Shown piece after piece: positions 2,107 to 29,609 of a stretch of 38,146 bases of DNA. The translations under genes and the position numbers were made by a program. Under the pieces are notes generated by a model. The model had not been told where the DNA came from and did not search any database. It saw only the letters and a list, made by a program, of their open reading frames with translations. The stretch is taken from NCBI GenBank assembly GCA_002722525.1, contig PBMJ01000027.1, forward strand, positions 1-38,146, given 5' to 3'. How positions within the stretch are numbered: the stretch's first letter is position 1; each line of letters opens with the position of its first letter. This DNA is from Acidimicrobiaceae bacterium. GTDB lineage: Bacteria > Actinomycetota > Acidimicrobiia > Acidimicrobiales > UBA8592.

Positions 2107-2201
2107 AGACCTCAGACATCGCAAATCTAGTTGTTATAGAAGTGGGAGATGGATTTCTGCTGGTAGACTTCTCTCTGTTCTGAAATCAGATCAAAAATTC
2201 A

Positions 2202-2258
2202 CCTGAAGCTAACCACGGTCGTTTTCGAGCGCAAACTTCAGGGTTCGTTTAACCGTGG
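2202..2258 (+). promoter_or_regulatory. Candidate structured rpsB leader (possible pseudoknot)
   Basis: CCTGAAG (2202-2208) pairs with CTTCAGG (2236-2242); CCACGGT (2213-2219) pairs with ACCGTGG (2252-2258); the pairs interleave and the last arm abuts AAGGAG before the rpsB ATG. Confidence 0.5.
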
Positions 2259-2270
2259 AAGGAGAAATTA

Positions 2271-3164
2271 ATGTCACCAGTTGTCACAATGAGTCAACTT
2301 CTAGAAGCAGGGGTCCATTTTGGCCATCAGACGAGACGTTGGAATCCAAAAATGCAGAGATTTATTTTTGGTGAGCGTAACGGGATATATCTACTCGATT
2401 TAAATCAAACCCTCGACTGTTTGGCTGCTGCATACACCCAAGTAAGAGATACCGTTGCAGGCGGTGGATTGGTTCTATTTGTCGGGACCAAGAAACAAAC
2501 TAGAGACTCCGTTGAACAGTACGCCGAACGGTGCGCCCAACCTTATGTAAACCAAAGATGGCTGGGCGGCATGCTTACAAATTTCGAAACAATGGCCAAA
2601 CGCGTTGCGAAAATGAAGGAATATCAACGTATGAGGGAATCCGGTGAGTTTGATGAGATGCCAAAGAAAGAAGCACTTATGCTCTCTAGAGAACTAGCAA
2701 AACTTGAGCGCAACCTAGGTGGTATCAGAACCATGCGTAGTCGGCCACAAATCGTTTTTGTGCTCGACACCAAAAAAGAACACATCGCAGTTACTGAAGC
2801 GAATAAGCTAGGCATCCCAGTGATAGCTGTTGTTGACACTAATTGTGACCCCGATGTTATCGACTACGTTATCCCAGGAAATGATGATGCTATCCGGTCA
2901 AGTGAACTCATGTGCCGAGTCATATGTGAAGCTGTAGAAGAAGGTCAATTAATAGCCTCCAAGAAACTCGGTAGTGAACCGCCTGTGCCAGAAGTGAACC
3001 AAGAGAGAACTGAAGAAGATGAAAAGGCGATAGCTGAGGAGCAAGAGCAGGCAAAAAAGGCTGCTGCAGAGGCATTCCGCGAAAAGGAGAAGAAAATAGC
3101 TGAAGAAATTGCATCCTCACCAGCCGAAGAATCGTCCGAACAAGAAAACCAAGAAACTAGTTAG
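2271..3164 (+). CDS. rpsB: 30S ribosomal protein S2, with acidic C-terminal extension
   Basis: [22 protein letters not shown]..., [24 protein letters not shown] upstream. Confidence 0.97.
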
Positions 3165-4812: not shown

Positions 4813-5382
4813 ATGAGCGAAGAGCTGATCGAATTAGTAATGCTAGAAATGAGAGAGAAGATGGCTAAGGCCGTTAATCGAACTCGCCAAGAATTTTCAT
4901 CTATTCGAACCGGAAGGCCTAGCCCTGCTTTAGTTGAAAAAATTCCTGTTGATTACTTCGGTAGTGAAGTCCCACTCCAACAACTAGCAAGTTTTTCAGT
5001 ACCTGAGGCACAGCAGCTAGTTATTTCTCCGTTTGATAAAGGTGCCGTAGAAGCAATAGAAAAGGCCATCCAAATAGCGGATTTAGGTATTAGCCCATCG
5101 AACGATGGTTCTGTTCTTCGCCTTTCGTTTCCTCCACTTACCGAAGAGCGAAGAAAACAGCTCGTAAAGGTAGTTCGGTCGTTGGCTGAGGAAGGTCGAG
5201 TCACCCTTAGGAATGTTCGAAGATCCTCTAGGCAGGACTTAGATGCTCTAGTAAAAGATGGAGAAGTATCTTCCGATTCTGTAAAGAGGGCGGAGGAATC
5301 TGTGGACCAAATTACTAGAGAGCATGAGAATGAAATAAACGCGGCTCTAGGGCAAAAAGAAGAAGAGCTTTTAGAAGTATAA
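4813..5382 (+). CDS. frr: Ribosome recycling factor
   Basis: FSSIRTGRPSPALVEKIPVDYFGSEVPLQQLA; SD GGAAGGAAG. Confidence 0.96.
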   Translation: MSEELIELVMLEMREKMAKAVNRTRQEFSSIRTGRPSPALVEKIPVDYFGSEVPLQQLASFSVPEAQQLVISPFDKGAVEAIEKAIQIADLGISPSNDGSVLRLSFPPLTEERRKQLVKVVRSLAEEGRVTLRNVRRSSRQDLDALVKDGEVSSDSVKRAEESVDQITREHENEINAALGQKEEELLEV

Positions 5383-12357: not shown

Positions 12358-15072
12358 TTGCCAGCAAAAGTAAGAGTTTATGAGCTCGCTCGAGAGTTAG
12401 ATGTAACGAATAAAGAGGTAATAGCGCTATGCGATTCTCTTGGCATAGATGCTAAAAGTCATTCCTCTAGCCTCGTTGAAGCGCAAGCAGATCGTGTTCG
12501 TAAAAAAGCCGAATCTGAAGGGATAGTAGGAAGTCAATCAGCGAAATCGCAGCCAAGTGAAGAGAAGTCAGTAGATGAGAAAAAATCTGCTCCGGCGAAA
12601 AGTGCAGGATCGAATGCAGTAAGTTCTAAGAAGCCACCGAAAAAAAAGGTAGAAGCCCCTTCTCAGCCTGAAGAATCTGAGGCCACACCTGCTAAGCAAA
12701 TTATTAGCTCAAATAAGTCTTCATCTCCTAAACCAGCGCCGAGAAGTACTTCAGATACTTCAGACGATAAGCAAACACCCCCTAAGACCGCTGCAAAATC
12801 AAAAGTGGAATCACCATCTAATAAACAATCCGCTGACAGAGCTAAGACAGAGATACCTCAGGCTCCACCTGTCGCGCCAACTGGCAAAAAGATTCCACCC
12901 CCTCCTTCTCCTAGGTCGGCATCAGGAAAACCCATACCTCCACCACCAGGTAAAGGAGGACGAGGCCATACCAAAACTGATCGTGGAGCGCCTTCGTATC
13001 GGCCACGGCCAGATGGTAAAGCCGCCGAAAGTGGGCAAAATCGCCCATCTGGCAGAAGACCGGCCACTGGCGGTACTGAACGTCCAGCTCGAGGTGCAGG
13101 TTTTGCCCCTTCAGGGCCTGTTGGCCCAGCTCCAGGGAAGCCAGGATCTGGGCGCTCAAGTGGCCGCCCAGGAGGCGGCCCTCCTCAGAGGCCTCAGAGA
13201 AAGAAGAAGAGTAGACGGCGCCGGCGACAAGAGGAATTACAGCCAATGGATGCGCCTGCGTACACTCCTGAAGACGCTCCAGTTCCAGAGGGCGAGGTAG
13301 TTATAGAAAGGGCTTCTTCCCCAATCGATATAGCACCGAAATTAAATCGAACTACAGCCGACGTTGTCCGTTACATGATGGAGCAGGGAGAGATGGTAAC
13401 TGCTACACAATCTTTGAGTGACGAAATGATCGAAATATTCGCTGCTGAAATAGGAGCTGAAGTTCGCCTAGTTAATCCAGGTGAAGAGCAGGAATTGGAG
13501 CTAAGGAAGAAACTCGAAGTTGAGCAGGAAGATGTAGATTCCGGCAAATCAGCTATTCGGCCACCAGTAGTAACAGTTATGGGGCATGTCGATCATGGGA
13601 AAACAAAACTATTGGATCAGATTAGAAACGCGAATGTTGTAAGTGGCGAAGCCGGAGGGATTACACAACATATTGGGGCTTATCAAATAAACAGAGGTGA
13701 CTCAACTCTGACTTTCTTAGACACACCCGGTCACGCGGCGTTTACCGCCATGCGTGCGAGGGGAGCTAACGTAACAGATATTGTTGTTCTCGTGGTCGCA
13801 GCAGATGACGGCGTAATGCCTCAGACCATCGAAGCTATTAACCATGCAAAAGCAGCTGAAGTTCCAATAATCGTTGCTGTCAACAAGATTGATCTCGAAA
13901 GCGCCGACACCCAACGAGTTCTAGCTGAGCTTGCCGAAAGAGAGCTAGTTCCTGAAGCGTGGGGTGGGGATACCATTGTTATAGAAATATCGGCTTTGGA
14001 GAATACCGGTATAGACGATTTACTTGAGAACATATTATTAGTTGCTGAAGTCGAAGACCTTCAAGCTTCTGATGCTGGCCGTGGCCAAGGTGTTGTCCTT
14101 GAGTCTCATCTTGATATTGGGCGCGGGCCAGTTGCAACAGTTCTCGTACAGAAAGGAACTGTTAAAGTAGGAGAACCTCTTGTTGCTGGTTCATCATGGG
14201 GAAGAGTGAGGGCTTTGGTTTCTGATACTGGCGACCAGGTTAGTTCTGCAGGCCCATCATCCCCGGTTCAGGTTTTAGGTTTATCTGATGTTGCAATAGC
14301 TGGAGATGAATTCATTATTGCGCCGGATGAACGCACTGCAAGAGATGTGGCCGAAACAAGAGAGCACTTTCAACGAGTTGCTTCTATAGGCCGCGACTCT
14401 TCTGCTGGTTTAACCGGTGGACGCCTCGAAGACCTTTTCAGTCAAATCAGTTCAGGGGAGAAAGCCACGCTTAACTTGATTTTAAAGGCGGATGTTAATG
14501 GGTCGTTAGAAGCCGTAACTGAGAGCTTGAGGAAACTGGAAAGAGATGAAGTAAATATAGCTTTCGTTCATTCCGGAGTTGGCGCGATAACAGAAAACGA
14601 TGTTCAATTGGCTGCGACATCTAATGCAACGGTTCTAGGTTTTAATGTTCGTCCGGATCGAAAAGCACGAGAAATAGCTGATCAAGAGAATGTAGAGATT
14701 CGAAATTACGAAATTATCTACAAGCTTTTGGAAGATATTGAATCTGCCATGGTCGGAATGCTAGTTCCAGAGTTTGAAGAAATTGTCACTGGTGAAGCTG
14801 AAGTTCGAGAGATATACAAGATCCCAAGAATTGGAGCTATAGCTGGGTGCTATGTCCTGAACGGTAAAATTACTCGGGGATCAAAAGTCCGGTTCCTACG
14901 TGAAGGAGTCATCATATGGAAAGGTGATGTCTCTTCCTTGAGGAGATTCAAAGAGGATGTTACTGAAGTTGCATCTGGATATGAATGCGGAATTGGTTTG
15001 TCGGATTTCCAAGACCTAAAAAATGGAGACATTATTGAAACTTTCGATGAGCGTGAGATTGCACCAACGTGA
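12358..15072 (+). CDS. infB: Translation initiation factor IF-2 (TTG start)
   Basis: VRVYELARELDVTNKEVI; VTVMGHVDHGKTKLLD, FLDTPGHAAFTAMRARGA, VAVNKIDL. Confidence 0.96.
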   Translation: MPAKVRVYELARELDVTNKEVIALCDSLGIDAKSHSSSLVEAQADRVRKKAESEGIVGSQSAKSQPSEEKSVDEKKSAPAKSAGSNAVSSKKPPKKKVEAPSQPEESEATPAKQIISSNKSSSPKPAPRSTSDTSDDKQTPPKTAAKSKVESPSNKQSADRAKTEIPQAPPVAPTGKKIPPPPSPRSASGKPIPPPPGKGGRGHTKTDRGAPSYRPRPDGKAAESGQNRPSGRRPATGGTERPARGAGFAPSGPVGPAPGKPGSGRSSGRPGGGPPQRPQRKKKSRRRRRQEELQPMDAPAYTPEDAPVPEGEVVIERASSPIDIAPKLNRTTADVVRYMMEQGEMVTATQSLSDEMIEIFAAEIGAEVRLVNPGEEQELELRKKLEVEQEDVDSGKSAIRPPVVTVMGHVDHGKTKLLDQIRNANVVSGEAGGITQHIGAYQINRGDSTLTFLDTPGHAAFTAMRARGANVTDIVVLVVAADDGVMPQTIEAINHAKAAEVPIIVAVNKIDLESADTQRVLAELAERELVPEAWGGDTIVIEISALENTGIDDLLENILLVAEVEDLQASDAGRGQGVVLESHLDIGRGPVATVLVQKGTVKVGEPLVAGSSWGRVRALVSDTGDQVSSAGPSSPVQVLGLSDVAIAGDEFIIAPDERTARDVAETREHFQRVASIGRDSSAGLTGGRLEDLFSQISSGEKATLNLILKADVNGSLEAVTESLRKLERDEVNIAFVHSGVGAITENDVQLAATSNATVLGFNVRPDRKAREIADQENVEIRNYEIIYKLLEDIESAMVGMLVPEFEEIVTGEAEVREIYKIPRIGAIAGCYVLNGKITRGSKVRFLREGVIIWKGDVSSLRRFKEDVTEVASGYECGIGLSDFQDLKNGDIIETFDEREIAPT

Positions 15073-23046: not shown

Positions 23047-24708
23047 ATGGAAAAAGTACGAATAACCTTTCTGGGAGGTTTAGGGGATATCGGTAGAAAT
23101 TGTGCCGTTATCGAGACCCTAAACCAGATACTAATTCTAGATTGTGGTCAGCTATTCCCTGATGAATACATGCCTGGAGCAAATTCAGTGCTTCCTGACC
23201 TGCCATACCTTTTGGATAGAAAAGAAAAGATCGTTGGATGTATAACGACTCATGCCCATGAAGACCACATCGGAGCTCTTCCTTATCTCCTTGAACATAT
23301 AGAACTACCTATCTATGGATCTTCGTTTACTCTTGGAATGATTAGAAATCGGTTAGAGGAGCGCCAACTTCTAAATCGTTGTGAGTTAATAGAGGTAAGT
23401 GACGGTGAAAAGATCGCTATTGGGGATTTTCCCTGCGAGTTTTTACCTGTAACTCATTCTGTTCCTGCAGGTTTGATATCTGCAATCGAAACCCCTCAAG
23501 GCTTAATCGTTCACTCCAGTGACTTCAAGTTAGACCTGAATCCGGTTGATGGCCGACTAACTGATTTAAATCGAATCGCCGAGCTTTCCAGAGATCCAGG
23601 TATCCGCCTCTTGCTTTGCGATTCAACGAATTCGGATATGCCAGGGAGCACCATCTCCGAGTCCGATATCGCTATTTCCTTGGATAAGGCATTTAAATCC
23701 AATGAAAGTAACCGAATTATTGCAGCATGCTTTGCAAGTCATGTCCATCGAGTCGAGCAAATTGCTACGACAGCAATCAACGCAGGGAGAAAGATTTCCA
23801 CATTAGGGCTATCAATGAAAAAAAATCTTTCCCTAGCCCGCCAGTTGGGGATCCTAGAAATTAAAGAAGAGCACCTCGTAGATATTGATGACACTCGTGA
23901 CTACCCTCCACACGAAATATGCATTATCAGCACTGGAACACAGGCTGAGCCTCGTTCGGCTTTAGCTATGGCCGCAACTGGGCAAAGTCGTTGGATCTCC
24001 ATAGGTGCACAGGACTCAGTTATCCTATCGTCGAGGGCTATTCCTGGGAATGAAGAGCGTGTAGGAAAAATGATAAATGCCCTTATGAAACGAGGCGCAG
24101 ATGTTCTGCATTCAGACCATCTAGGACTTCACACTTCGGGGCATGGAAAACAGGAAGAGCTTCAATCACTTCATCAGGCTTCCAATCCGGATTGGTTCGT
24201 TCCAGTTCACGGAGAATATAGACATCTGGTTGCTCACAAAGACCTAGCTGTTGAGATCGGTATGCCTGCCGAAAGAATTCTCCTTGCTACAGACGGCGAC
24301 CAGATTGTACTTACTGACGACGGAATGGAACTTATAGAAAAAGTTACTTCAGGAGGTTACCCATTTGTGCAAGGGAGGATCCTTGAATATGAACACCAAA
24401 TATTCTCTGATAGAAGAATTCTCGGGAAAGAAGGATTCGTAATTGCAACAGTGCAAATTGCTAAAAAAGATAATGAAATCCTGGGAGATCCACAGATTGT
24501 TAGTAGAGGCTGGGTAAGTGCTCACACAGCCAACAGGCTTGAAGAAGAGATCGCAATCGCGGTCAAAAAAGGAGTTCAAAAAACACTTCTTATGGAAGAT
24601 GCAACAGATCAAGATTTAGAGCAACGAGTTAGGAGAATCACTGGGAGTCTCGTAAATGAATTAACAGGTCGTAGGCCTATGATTATCCCTATCGTTCGAA
24701 AAGTATGA
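23047..24708 (+). CDS. rnj: Ribonuclease J (metallo-beta-lactamase/beta-CASP)
   Basis: FLGGLGDIGRNCAVIE, THAHEDHIGALPYLL, beta-CASP motifs; ATG 23047 fits homolog start better than 22999. Confidence 0.92.
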   Translation: MEKVRITFLGGLGDIGRNCAVIETLNQILILDCGQLFPDEYMPGANSVLPDLPYLLDRKEKIVGCITTHAHEDHIGALPYLLEHIELPIYGSSFTLGMIRNRLEERQLLNRCELIEVSDGEKIAIGDFPCEFLPVTHSVPAGLISAIETPQGLIVHSSDFKLDLNPVDGRLTDLNRIAELSRDPGIRLLLCDSTNSDMPGSTISESDIAISLDKAFKSNESNRIIAACFASHVHRVEQIATTAINAGRKISTLGLSMKKNLSLARQLGILEIKEEHLVDIDDTRDYPPHEICIISTGTQAEPRSALAMAATGQSRWISIGAQDSVILSSRAIPGNEERVGKMINALMKRGADVLHSDHLGLHTSGHGKQEELQSLHQASNPDWFVPVHGEYRHLVAHKDLAVEIGMPAERILLATDGDQIVLTDDGMELIEKVTSGGYPFVQGRILEYEHQIFSDRRILGKEGFVIATVQIAKKDNEILGDPQIVSRGWVSAHTANRLEEEIAIAVKKGVQKTLLMEDATDQDLEQRVRRITGSLVNELTGRRPMIIPIVRKV

Positions 24709-24851
24709 CCAAAAGTTTTGCTATTATCCATAGGTCAGGTTGCTGATAGGGCACCCCGAAATGTCCTATAGTTAGTGTTAACGTTTAATTATCAACAAAC
24801 CTGAAAGAATTCTCAGCACAAGAATCAGAAGTTGGCAGAGAGTTAAAAGAA

Positions 24852-28343: not shown

Positions 28344-29609
28344 GTGAAGAAAAGCTTTTGGATTGAAACTTTAGGCTGTCCCAAAAACAAGGTTGATAGC
28401 GAGAAGATAGCTGGAACACTCCTCGTAGATGGTATGAGCCCAGCAGAGGCTCCTACTGATGCGAATTTAATAGTTGTAAATACATGTTCCTTTGTTGAGG
28501 AAGCAAGACAAGAAAGTATCGCGACAGTTTTTGAATATAGTCAGATGCGTTCAGAAGATGTTCAAGTAGTTGTCACTGGATGTTTGGCAGAGAGGTATGG
28601 GGAAGAGATTTCAAATTCGTTAGAGGGCGATGTAGACGCGATTGCTGGTTTTGGTGTTCCGGTAAATATTTCTTCAAAACCAGATGTTGCCAAATTTGAC
28701 CTGCTTAATTTACCTCATCCTAAGAGAGAAGAGCCGTGGGGCTATGTGAAGGTTGCTGAAGGTTGCGATAGGGTTTGCGGATTTTGTGCGATTCCATCTT
28801 TCAGAGGGCCACAAAGATCTAGATCGATTTCGGAAATTCGAGAAGAAATCATATCACTCGAATTACAGGAAGTGGTCCTAGTGGCTCAGGATCTTGCCTC
28901 TTGGGCCAGAGACCAACGCGAGTCACCTGAGGGCATTGTCGATTTGGTAAAAGAGGTTAGCGATATAGTCCCGTGGGTCCGTCTTTTGTACTTGTATCCC
29001 TCTAGTCTTTCTGGTGAACTCGTTGAAATTATTGCCAACAGCCCAGTTCCGTATTTTGACCTAAGCCTACAACATATATCAGGACCGCTCCTTCGAAAAA
29101 TGCGACGATGGGGAGATGGGGAACGATTCACCAAGGTCATTAAAGACATCAGAAAAATCAGATCAGATGCGGCTTTTCGCACAAACTTCATAGTTGGCTA
29201 CCCCGGAGAAACTGAGGAGGACCATGATCAGTTGCTGCGCTTCCTTGAAGAGAACGAAATTGACTGGTGCGGATTCTTCCCTTATTCAAAGGAGGCTGGA
29301 ACATACGCCGAAACGCTCACGGAGGAGGTTGCTGAACCCCTAGTAATGGAAAGACTCCGAGAATTGAGTGAAGTACAGGATGTCATAACAGAAAAAAAAC
29401 GAGATTCCATAATAGGAGAAAAAGTAACCGTGCTTATTGAGAGTCAAGGCACAGGGCGCAGCCATCGCGAAGCTCCGGAGATCGATGGGTTGATCTATGT
29501 TCCAAATACCTTAGAGGTCGGAAGTTTCAAAACGGTAACTATAAGGGAAGCCTTAGGGGTAGACCTTAAGGCAGAACTTAGCGATTTTGCTTACCGAGAG
29601 GGGTCATGA
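28344..29609 (+). CDS. rimO: Ribosomal protein S12 methylthiotransferase RimO (GTG start)
   Basis: ETLGCPKNKVDSE, radical SAM CDRVCGFCAIPSFRGPQRSRS, TRAM C-terminus. Confidence 0.93.
   Translation: MKKSFWIETLGCPKNKVDSEKIAGTLLVDGMSPAEAPTDANLIVVNTCSFVEEARQESIATVFEYSQMRSEDVQVVVTGCLAERYGEEISNSLEGDVDAIAGFGVPVNISSKPDVAKFDLLNLPHPKREEPWGYVKVAEGCDRVCGFCAIPSFRGPQRSRSISEIREEIISLELQEVVLVAQDLASWARDQRESPEGIVDLVKEVSDIVPWVRLLYLYPSSLSGELVEIIANSPVPYFDLSLQHISGPLLRKMRRWGDGERFTKVIKDIRKIRSDAAFRTNFIVGYPGETEEDHDQLLRFLEENEIDWCGFFPYSKEAGTYAETLTEEVAEPLVMERLRELSEVQDVITEKKRDSIIGEKVTVLIESQGTGRSHREAPEIDGLIYVPNTLEVGSFKTVTIREALGVDLKAELSDFAYREGS

Follow-up and report, generated by a model that had tools for sequence, protein, structure and literature searches.

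The question raised by this locus is whether two interleaved complementary segments, located directly in front of the gene for ribosomal protein S2 (rpsB), form an RNA pseudoknot able to control the translation of that gene. The locus lies near the beginning of a window of 38,146 nucleotides, the whole stretch of DNA that was analysed, and the source genome, 1.22 Mb in size, is that of a marine actinobacterium of the Acidimicrobiia type. The analysis points to a cis-acting regulatory pseudoknot in the rpsB-tsf 5' leader, likely a compact Acidimicrobiia variant of the known rpsB motif that would act through an S2-stabilised block of the Shine-Dalgarno (SD) sequence.

Organization of the rpsB leader

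The following features have been assigned to the leader and the adjoining gene:

2164-2169, plus strand: TAGACT, a -10-like hexamer proposed, from its conservation in the genus, as the likely promoter for rpsB
2176-2193, plus strand: small 5' hairpin, tentatively assigned, with a UCUG-AAAU-CAGA core at the predicted mRNA 5' end (local fold -4.1 kcal/mol)
2202-2208, plus strand: P1 5' arm (A), part of a perfect pair in which all seven base pairs covary
2209-2212, plus strand: 4-nt loop across the pseudoknot helix, read directly; relatives usually have a few nucleotides between the A and B arms
2213-2219, plus strand: pseudoknot 5' arm (B; J2-3 of the rpsB motif), with an almost invariant CGGT core and covarying outer pairs
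2220-2231, plus strand: P3 hairpin CGUU-UUCG-AGCG, four pairs, continuous with the pseudoknot helix
2236-2242, plus strand: P1 3' arm (A'), assigned on the same basis as the 5' arm at 2202-2208
2243-2251, plus strand: 9-nt loop across P1, its last base being the first A of a conserved AACC
2252-2258, plus strand: pseudoknot 3' arm (B'), abutting the SD, assigned from the covariation of the outer helix and the spacing to the start codon
2259-2264, plus strand: Shine-Dalgarno sequence AAGGAG, read directly
2271-3164, plus strand: rpsB (ribosomal protein S2), followed by tsf; an ORF with an S2 N-terminus and 80 S2 relatives by tblastn

The earlier note had described two perfect 7-bp pairs, CCTGAAG with CTTCAGG (helix A, or P1) and CCACGGT with ACCGTGG (helix B), interleaved in the order A-B-A'-B' with loops of 4, 16 and 9 nt, as well as AAGGAG immediately behind B' and an ATG at 2271. 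Direct reading of the sequence bears out this description. The proposed H-type geometry is also plausible, as loops of 4 and 9 nt can plausibly span two 7-bp helices. The middle loop has the length of 16 nt given for it; the P3 hairpin inside it, which joins the pseudoknot 5' arm without a gap, had been overlooked. Together, P1 and helix B would make up an H-type pseudoknot, into which the P3 hairpin is inserted. The distance from the end of B' to the AUG is 12 nt in the window, with a median of 14 nt in 87 loci, and the SD is located directly 3' of B' in nearly all loci; in some relatives, such as L030, B' overlaps the SD purines.

The rpsB ORF starting at this ATG encodes 297 residues and, according to our reading of the ORFs, appears to be followed by tsf and then by pyrH- and frr-like ORFs; tsf is presumably co-transcribed with rpsB. 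A transcription start downstream of 2208, named in the earlier note as an event that would exclude arm A, is made unlikely by the -10-like hexamer, which takes the form TACACT or TAGAAT in eight loci of the same genus, 29-34 nt 5' of P1. Its conservation puts the likely start upstream of P1, and arm A would then belong to the transcript. A scan with the sigma-70 consensus found no full promoter and no -35 match. By eye, relatives also carry a hairpin at the place of 2176-2193; in other Acidimicrobiia it is longer and seems to covary.

When the 167-nt leader was shuffled 20,000 times with its dinucleotides kept, 462 of the shuffled sequences (2.3%) contained an interleaved perfect 7+7 pair, and the window contains five other such sites (417-508, 4935-5016, 13008-13102, 24687-24798 and 28645-28708), so that the lone window sequence is weak and unconvincing evidence for a pseudoknot. 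Most of the five other sites lie inside ORFs and presumably arose by chance. The pseudoknot-free fold of the leader is not unusually stable (z -0.70).

Conservation and covariation in Acidimicrobiia

A match at the DNA level is present in 13 of 20 genomes of the same family, the window's own genome included, and 80 loci were found through the S2 protein alone by tblastn. By eye, nearly all Acidimicrobiia leaders share one plan, composed successively of a variable A arm, CACGGUCG, a small hairpin, the A' arm, AACCG(N)UGGG and the SD; AACC is present in nearly all aligned leaders. Two of the loci, L032 and L072, are titled Acidobacteriota and Acidobacteria yet possess an rpsB and leader of the Acidimicrobiia type, and they probably represent mislabelled MAGs.

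When A arms were paired with their own or with foreign A' arms, the mean stem score was 21.1 against 13.7, and for the outer part of helix B it was 10.7 against 8.8; in both cases none of 20,000 permutations was as good. Because such permutations are inflated by relatedness, changes were also counted with the help of an alignment and a tree. Since MAFFT by itself set arm A out of register from clade to clade, a model-based alignment was used, A5, which was fitted to P1 and P3 and whose model does not contain helix B. In A5, 94.2% of cells are paired and 11 pairs show double changes: (i) in P1, all seven pairs, with 96.7% of cells paired; (ii) in P3, two of four pairs, with 99.4% of cells paired; (iii) in helix B, two of seven pairs, the four core pairs being invariant. 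The covariation score of A5 was reached by none of 500 shuffles, and sliding the partners by one column reduced it from 0.427 to about 0.1, with a collapse of the paired fraction as well.

On a quickly built maximum-likelihood tree of 89 S2 proteins, P1 requires no fewer than 122 switches from one Watson-Crick pair type to another, and P3 requires 20. In helix B, the first outer pair changed 11 times and occurs in all four types, and the 3-bp outer helix takes 14 distinct forms through 14 changes; fewer than two outer pairs are formed in 14 of the 89 leaders under the simple registers allowed. The CGGU/ACCG core of helix B is nearly invariant and thus provides little covariation by itself. Its sole compensation is found in L034, where a core C-G pair is replaced by U-A with both sides changed (CCUGUGGU / AACCACAGG; UGGU/ACCA). 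Compensatory covariation of both helices, proposed in the earlier note as a check, is therefore abundant, and comparison of the leader sequences shows helices A and B, together with P3, to be kept as base pairs by selection.

The element is also specific to its position. A covariance model built from 51 leaders (R2) was run on 198 whole genomes of the class Acidimicrobiia and 297 of the phylum. All 33 R2 loci fetched, down to an E-value of 4.5e-5, are located directly upstream of rpsB, and strong R2 matches stand only before this gene. Outside the class, R2 gave fifteen further matches (E 5.7e-5 to 0.01); as none has an rpsB in its vicinity, they are regarded as chance hits. The genome-wide tally of 46 out of 198 is a lower bound owing to a strict pre-filter; among the 31 protein-found Acidimicrobiia loci outside the building set of R2, the element precedes rpsB in 21 by our own count (E < 0.001).

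Relationship to the rpsB motif

The earlier note had regarded the architecture as unfamiliar. This view is not borne out, as P1, P3 and the J2-3 pseudoknot are arranged in the leader, in compact form, as they are in the known rpsB (S2) motif (Meyer 2009, PMC2704228). The described motif comprises P1, variable P2 and P3 elements, either of which may be short or absent, and a pseudoknot between J2-3 and a 3' extension after P1; it is known from Proteobacteria, Cyanobacteria and some Firmicutes, Actinomycetota not being among them (PMC2704228). The window element shares with it (i) a location directly upstream of rpsB; (ii) a base-paired P1, here with seven covarying pairs; (iii) an absent P2 and a short, covarying P3, as the motif allows; (iv) pairing of the strand before P3 with the 3' extension after P1. 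The likeness to E. coli extends to a GGU...AACC pseudoknot core, which by our reading corresponds to GGGGU 502-506 and ACCCC 546-550 of L095.

There are also differences between the two forms. These relate to P1, which is described as long and is short in the window, its inner part and the internal loop being missing; to the pseudoknot, of 3-5 bp in the description and 7 bp in the window; to its distance from the start codon, as 24 nt separate its end from the AUG in E. coli and 12 nt in the window, where it lies against the SD; and to the signatures CACAC before P1 and GGAGG after P1, which are lost, the window having TTCACC and GTTCG instead.

The Rfam model of the E. coli element, RF00127 (t44), scores 83.5 bits on the E. 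coli leader. With a model threshold of 44 bits, it gave no match to the window even at E<=5 and none to the 14 relatives searched, compact Acidimicrobiia leaders among them. Among 297 Actinomycetota genomes, 24 contain a sub-threshold RF00127 match (L144-L168, outside the class), and in 23 of these it is located immediately upstream of rpsB. The classical S2 leader thus occurs in Actinomycetota; it is under-covered by Rfam and typed there as an sRNA gene.

From 18 of these classical leaders, all from Actinomycetota outside the class, a further model (R3) was constructed. It matches E. coli t44 (E 3e-9) as well as the Acidimicrobiia leaders L065 (1.9e-5), L046 (5.6e-4), L122 (6.2e-4), L119 (0.0017) and L052 (0.02), and four of these, L065, L122, L119 and L052, are located independently by R2 in the same positions. 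The leaders found by R3 carry CACAC and GGAGG or close forms, for instance the transitional L122 and L052, and the compact ACGGUCGC hairpin core is also present in L119, L122 and L052. A search of the window with R3 gave nothing meaningful. Since the window escapes both RF00127 and R3, its family membership rests on a chain of models, leading from E. coli through other Actinomycetota and the transitional Acidimicrobiia leaders to the window. This chain supports common descent. On this view, the compact form would have shed both signatures together with the inner P1, and its pseudoknot would have become longer and come to lie against the SD.

A description of the compact form in Actinomycetota was not found in Rfam or in the searchable literature, where subscription papers are partly covered. 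Among described actinobacterial leaders, that of mycobacterial rpsO (S15) is similar in that its autogenous repression is mediated by a pseudoknot located 5' of the start site (PMC8470358, PMC10931766); it differs in gene and protein, and the two are likened by description. In L092-L094 (Plantactinospora, Micromonospora), CCUGGUC, a hairpin and AACCAGGG precede the SD and may represent the same pseudoknot, expanded by a hairpin inserted into it; none of the models scores these three loci.

Proposed function and alternatives

In E. coli, S2 represses rpsB-tsf through the leader with the help of S1, and the S2 operator excludes the ribosome binding site (RBS) and the SD (PMC10931766). Since the RBS lies outside the operator, the mechanism of S2 repression in E. 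coli is unresolved, and SD occlusion is not the established one (PMC10931766). We infer that excess S2 probably shuts off its own production via the Acidimicrobiia leader. S2 made beyond the need of ribosome assembly would bind and stabilise the leader fold; the stabilised helix, 12 nt before the AUG and within the ribosome footprint, would keep the 30S subunit from the SD, and S2 and EF-Ts would be lowered together. When S2 is scarce, the pseudoknot would open or melt and translation would go on. The broader proposal, that Acidimicrobiia possess a class-wide compact S2 leader whose operator, unlike that of E. coli, was rebuilt so that the S2-stabilised pseudoknot blocks the SD, is put forward tentatively, as somewhat short of probable.

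The same pseudoknot may act otherwise, by entrapment or as a ribosome standby site or enhancer, with S2, perhaps together with S1, freezing a 30S-bound or upstream-bound state. In favour of such action, the model leaves the SD unpaired, S1 binds pseudoknots with high affinity, entrapment is the mode of action of S4 and S15 in E. coli (PMC10931766), and the RBS is no part of the E. coli S2 operator. The contact of B' with the SD in nearly all relatives, and its overlap with the SD purines in leaders such as L030, suits occlusion better. Because the pseudoknot ends at the SD, S2-stabilised occlusion is judged most likely and entrapment or standby second, as a rather unlikely reading.

It is improbable that helices A and B are mutually exclusive hairpins of a two-state switch. 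Such a switch agrees with the similar predicted energies of the alternatives taken alone (-8.4 kcal/mol for P1 with P3, -9.9 kcal/mol for helix B with P3) and with the pseudoknot-free minimum free energy structure, which contains helix B without P1; loop lengths that fit a pseudoknot, the description of the related motif as a pseudoknot (PMC2704228) and the single conserved partner of each arm speak against it. Slighter still is the chance that the pseudoknot is real and responds to EF-Ts, another protein, temperature or ions rather than S2: tsf lies directly downstream, but rpsB is the gene that the element precedes, and the chain of models links the element to a family with an S2-responsive member in E. 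coli. Chance complementarity, to which the shuffles and the other 7+7 sites of the window might point, is refuted by the class-wide compensatory changes and has a negligible probability.

Significance

These results extend a ribosomal-protein leader with narrow Rfam coverage to a whole class of Actinomycetota, in which leaders intermediate between the long and the compact fold are seen. With a length of about 60 nt and in contact with the SD, the compact version offers a small system in which the unresolved question of S2 repression in E. coli can be tested, and it is a minimal candidate S2-binding RNA.
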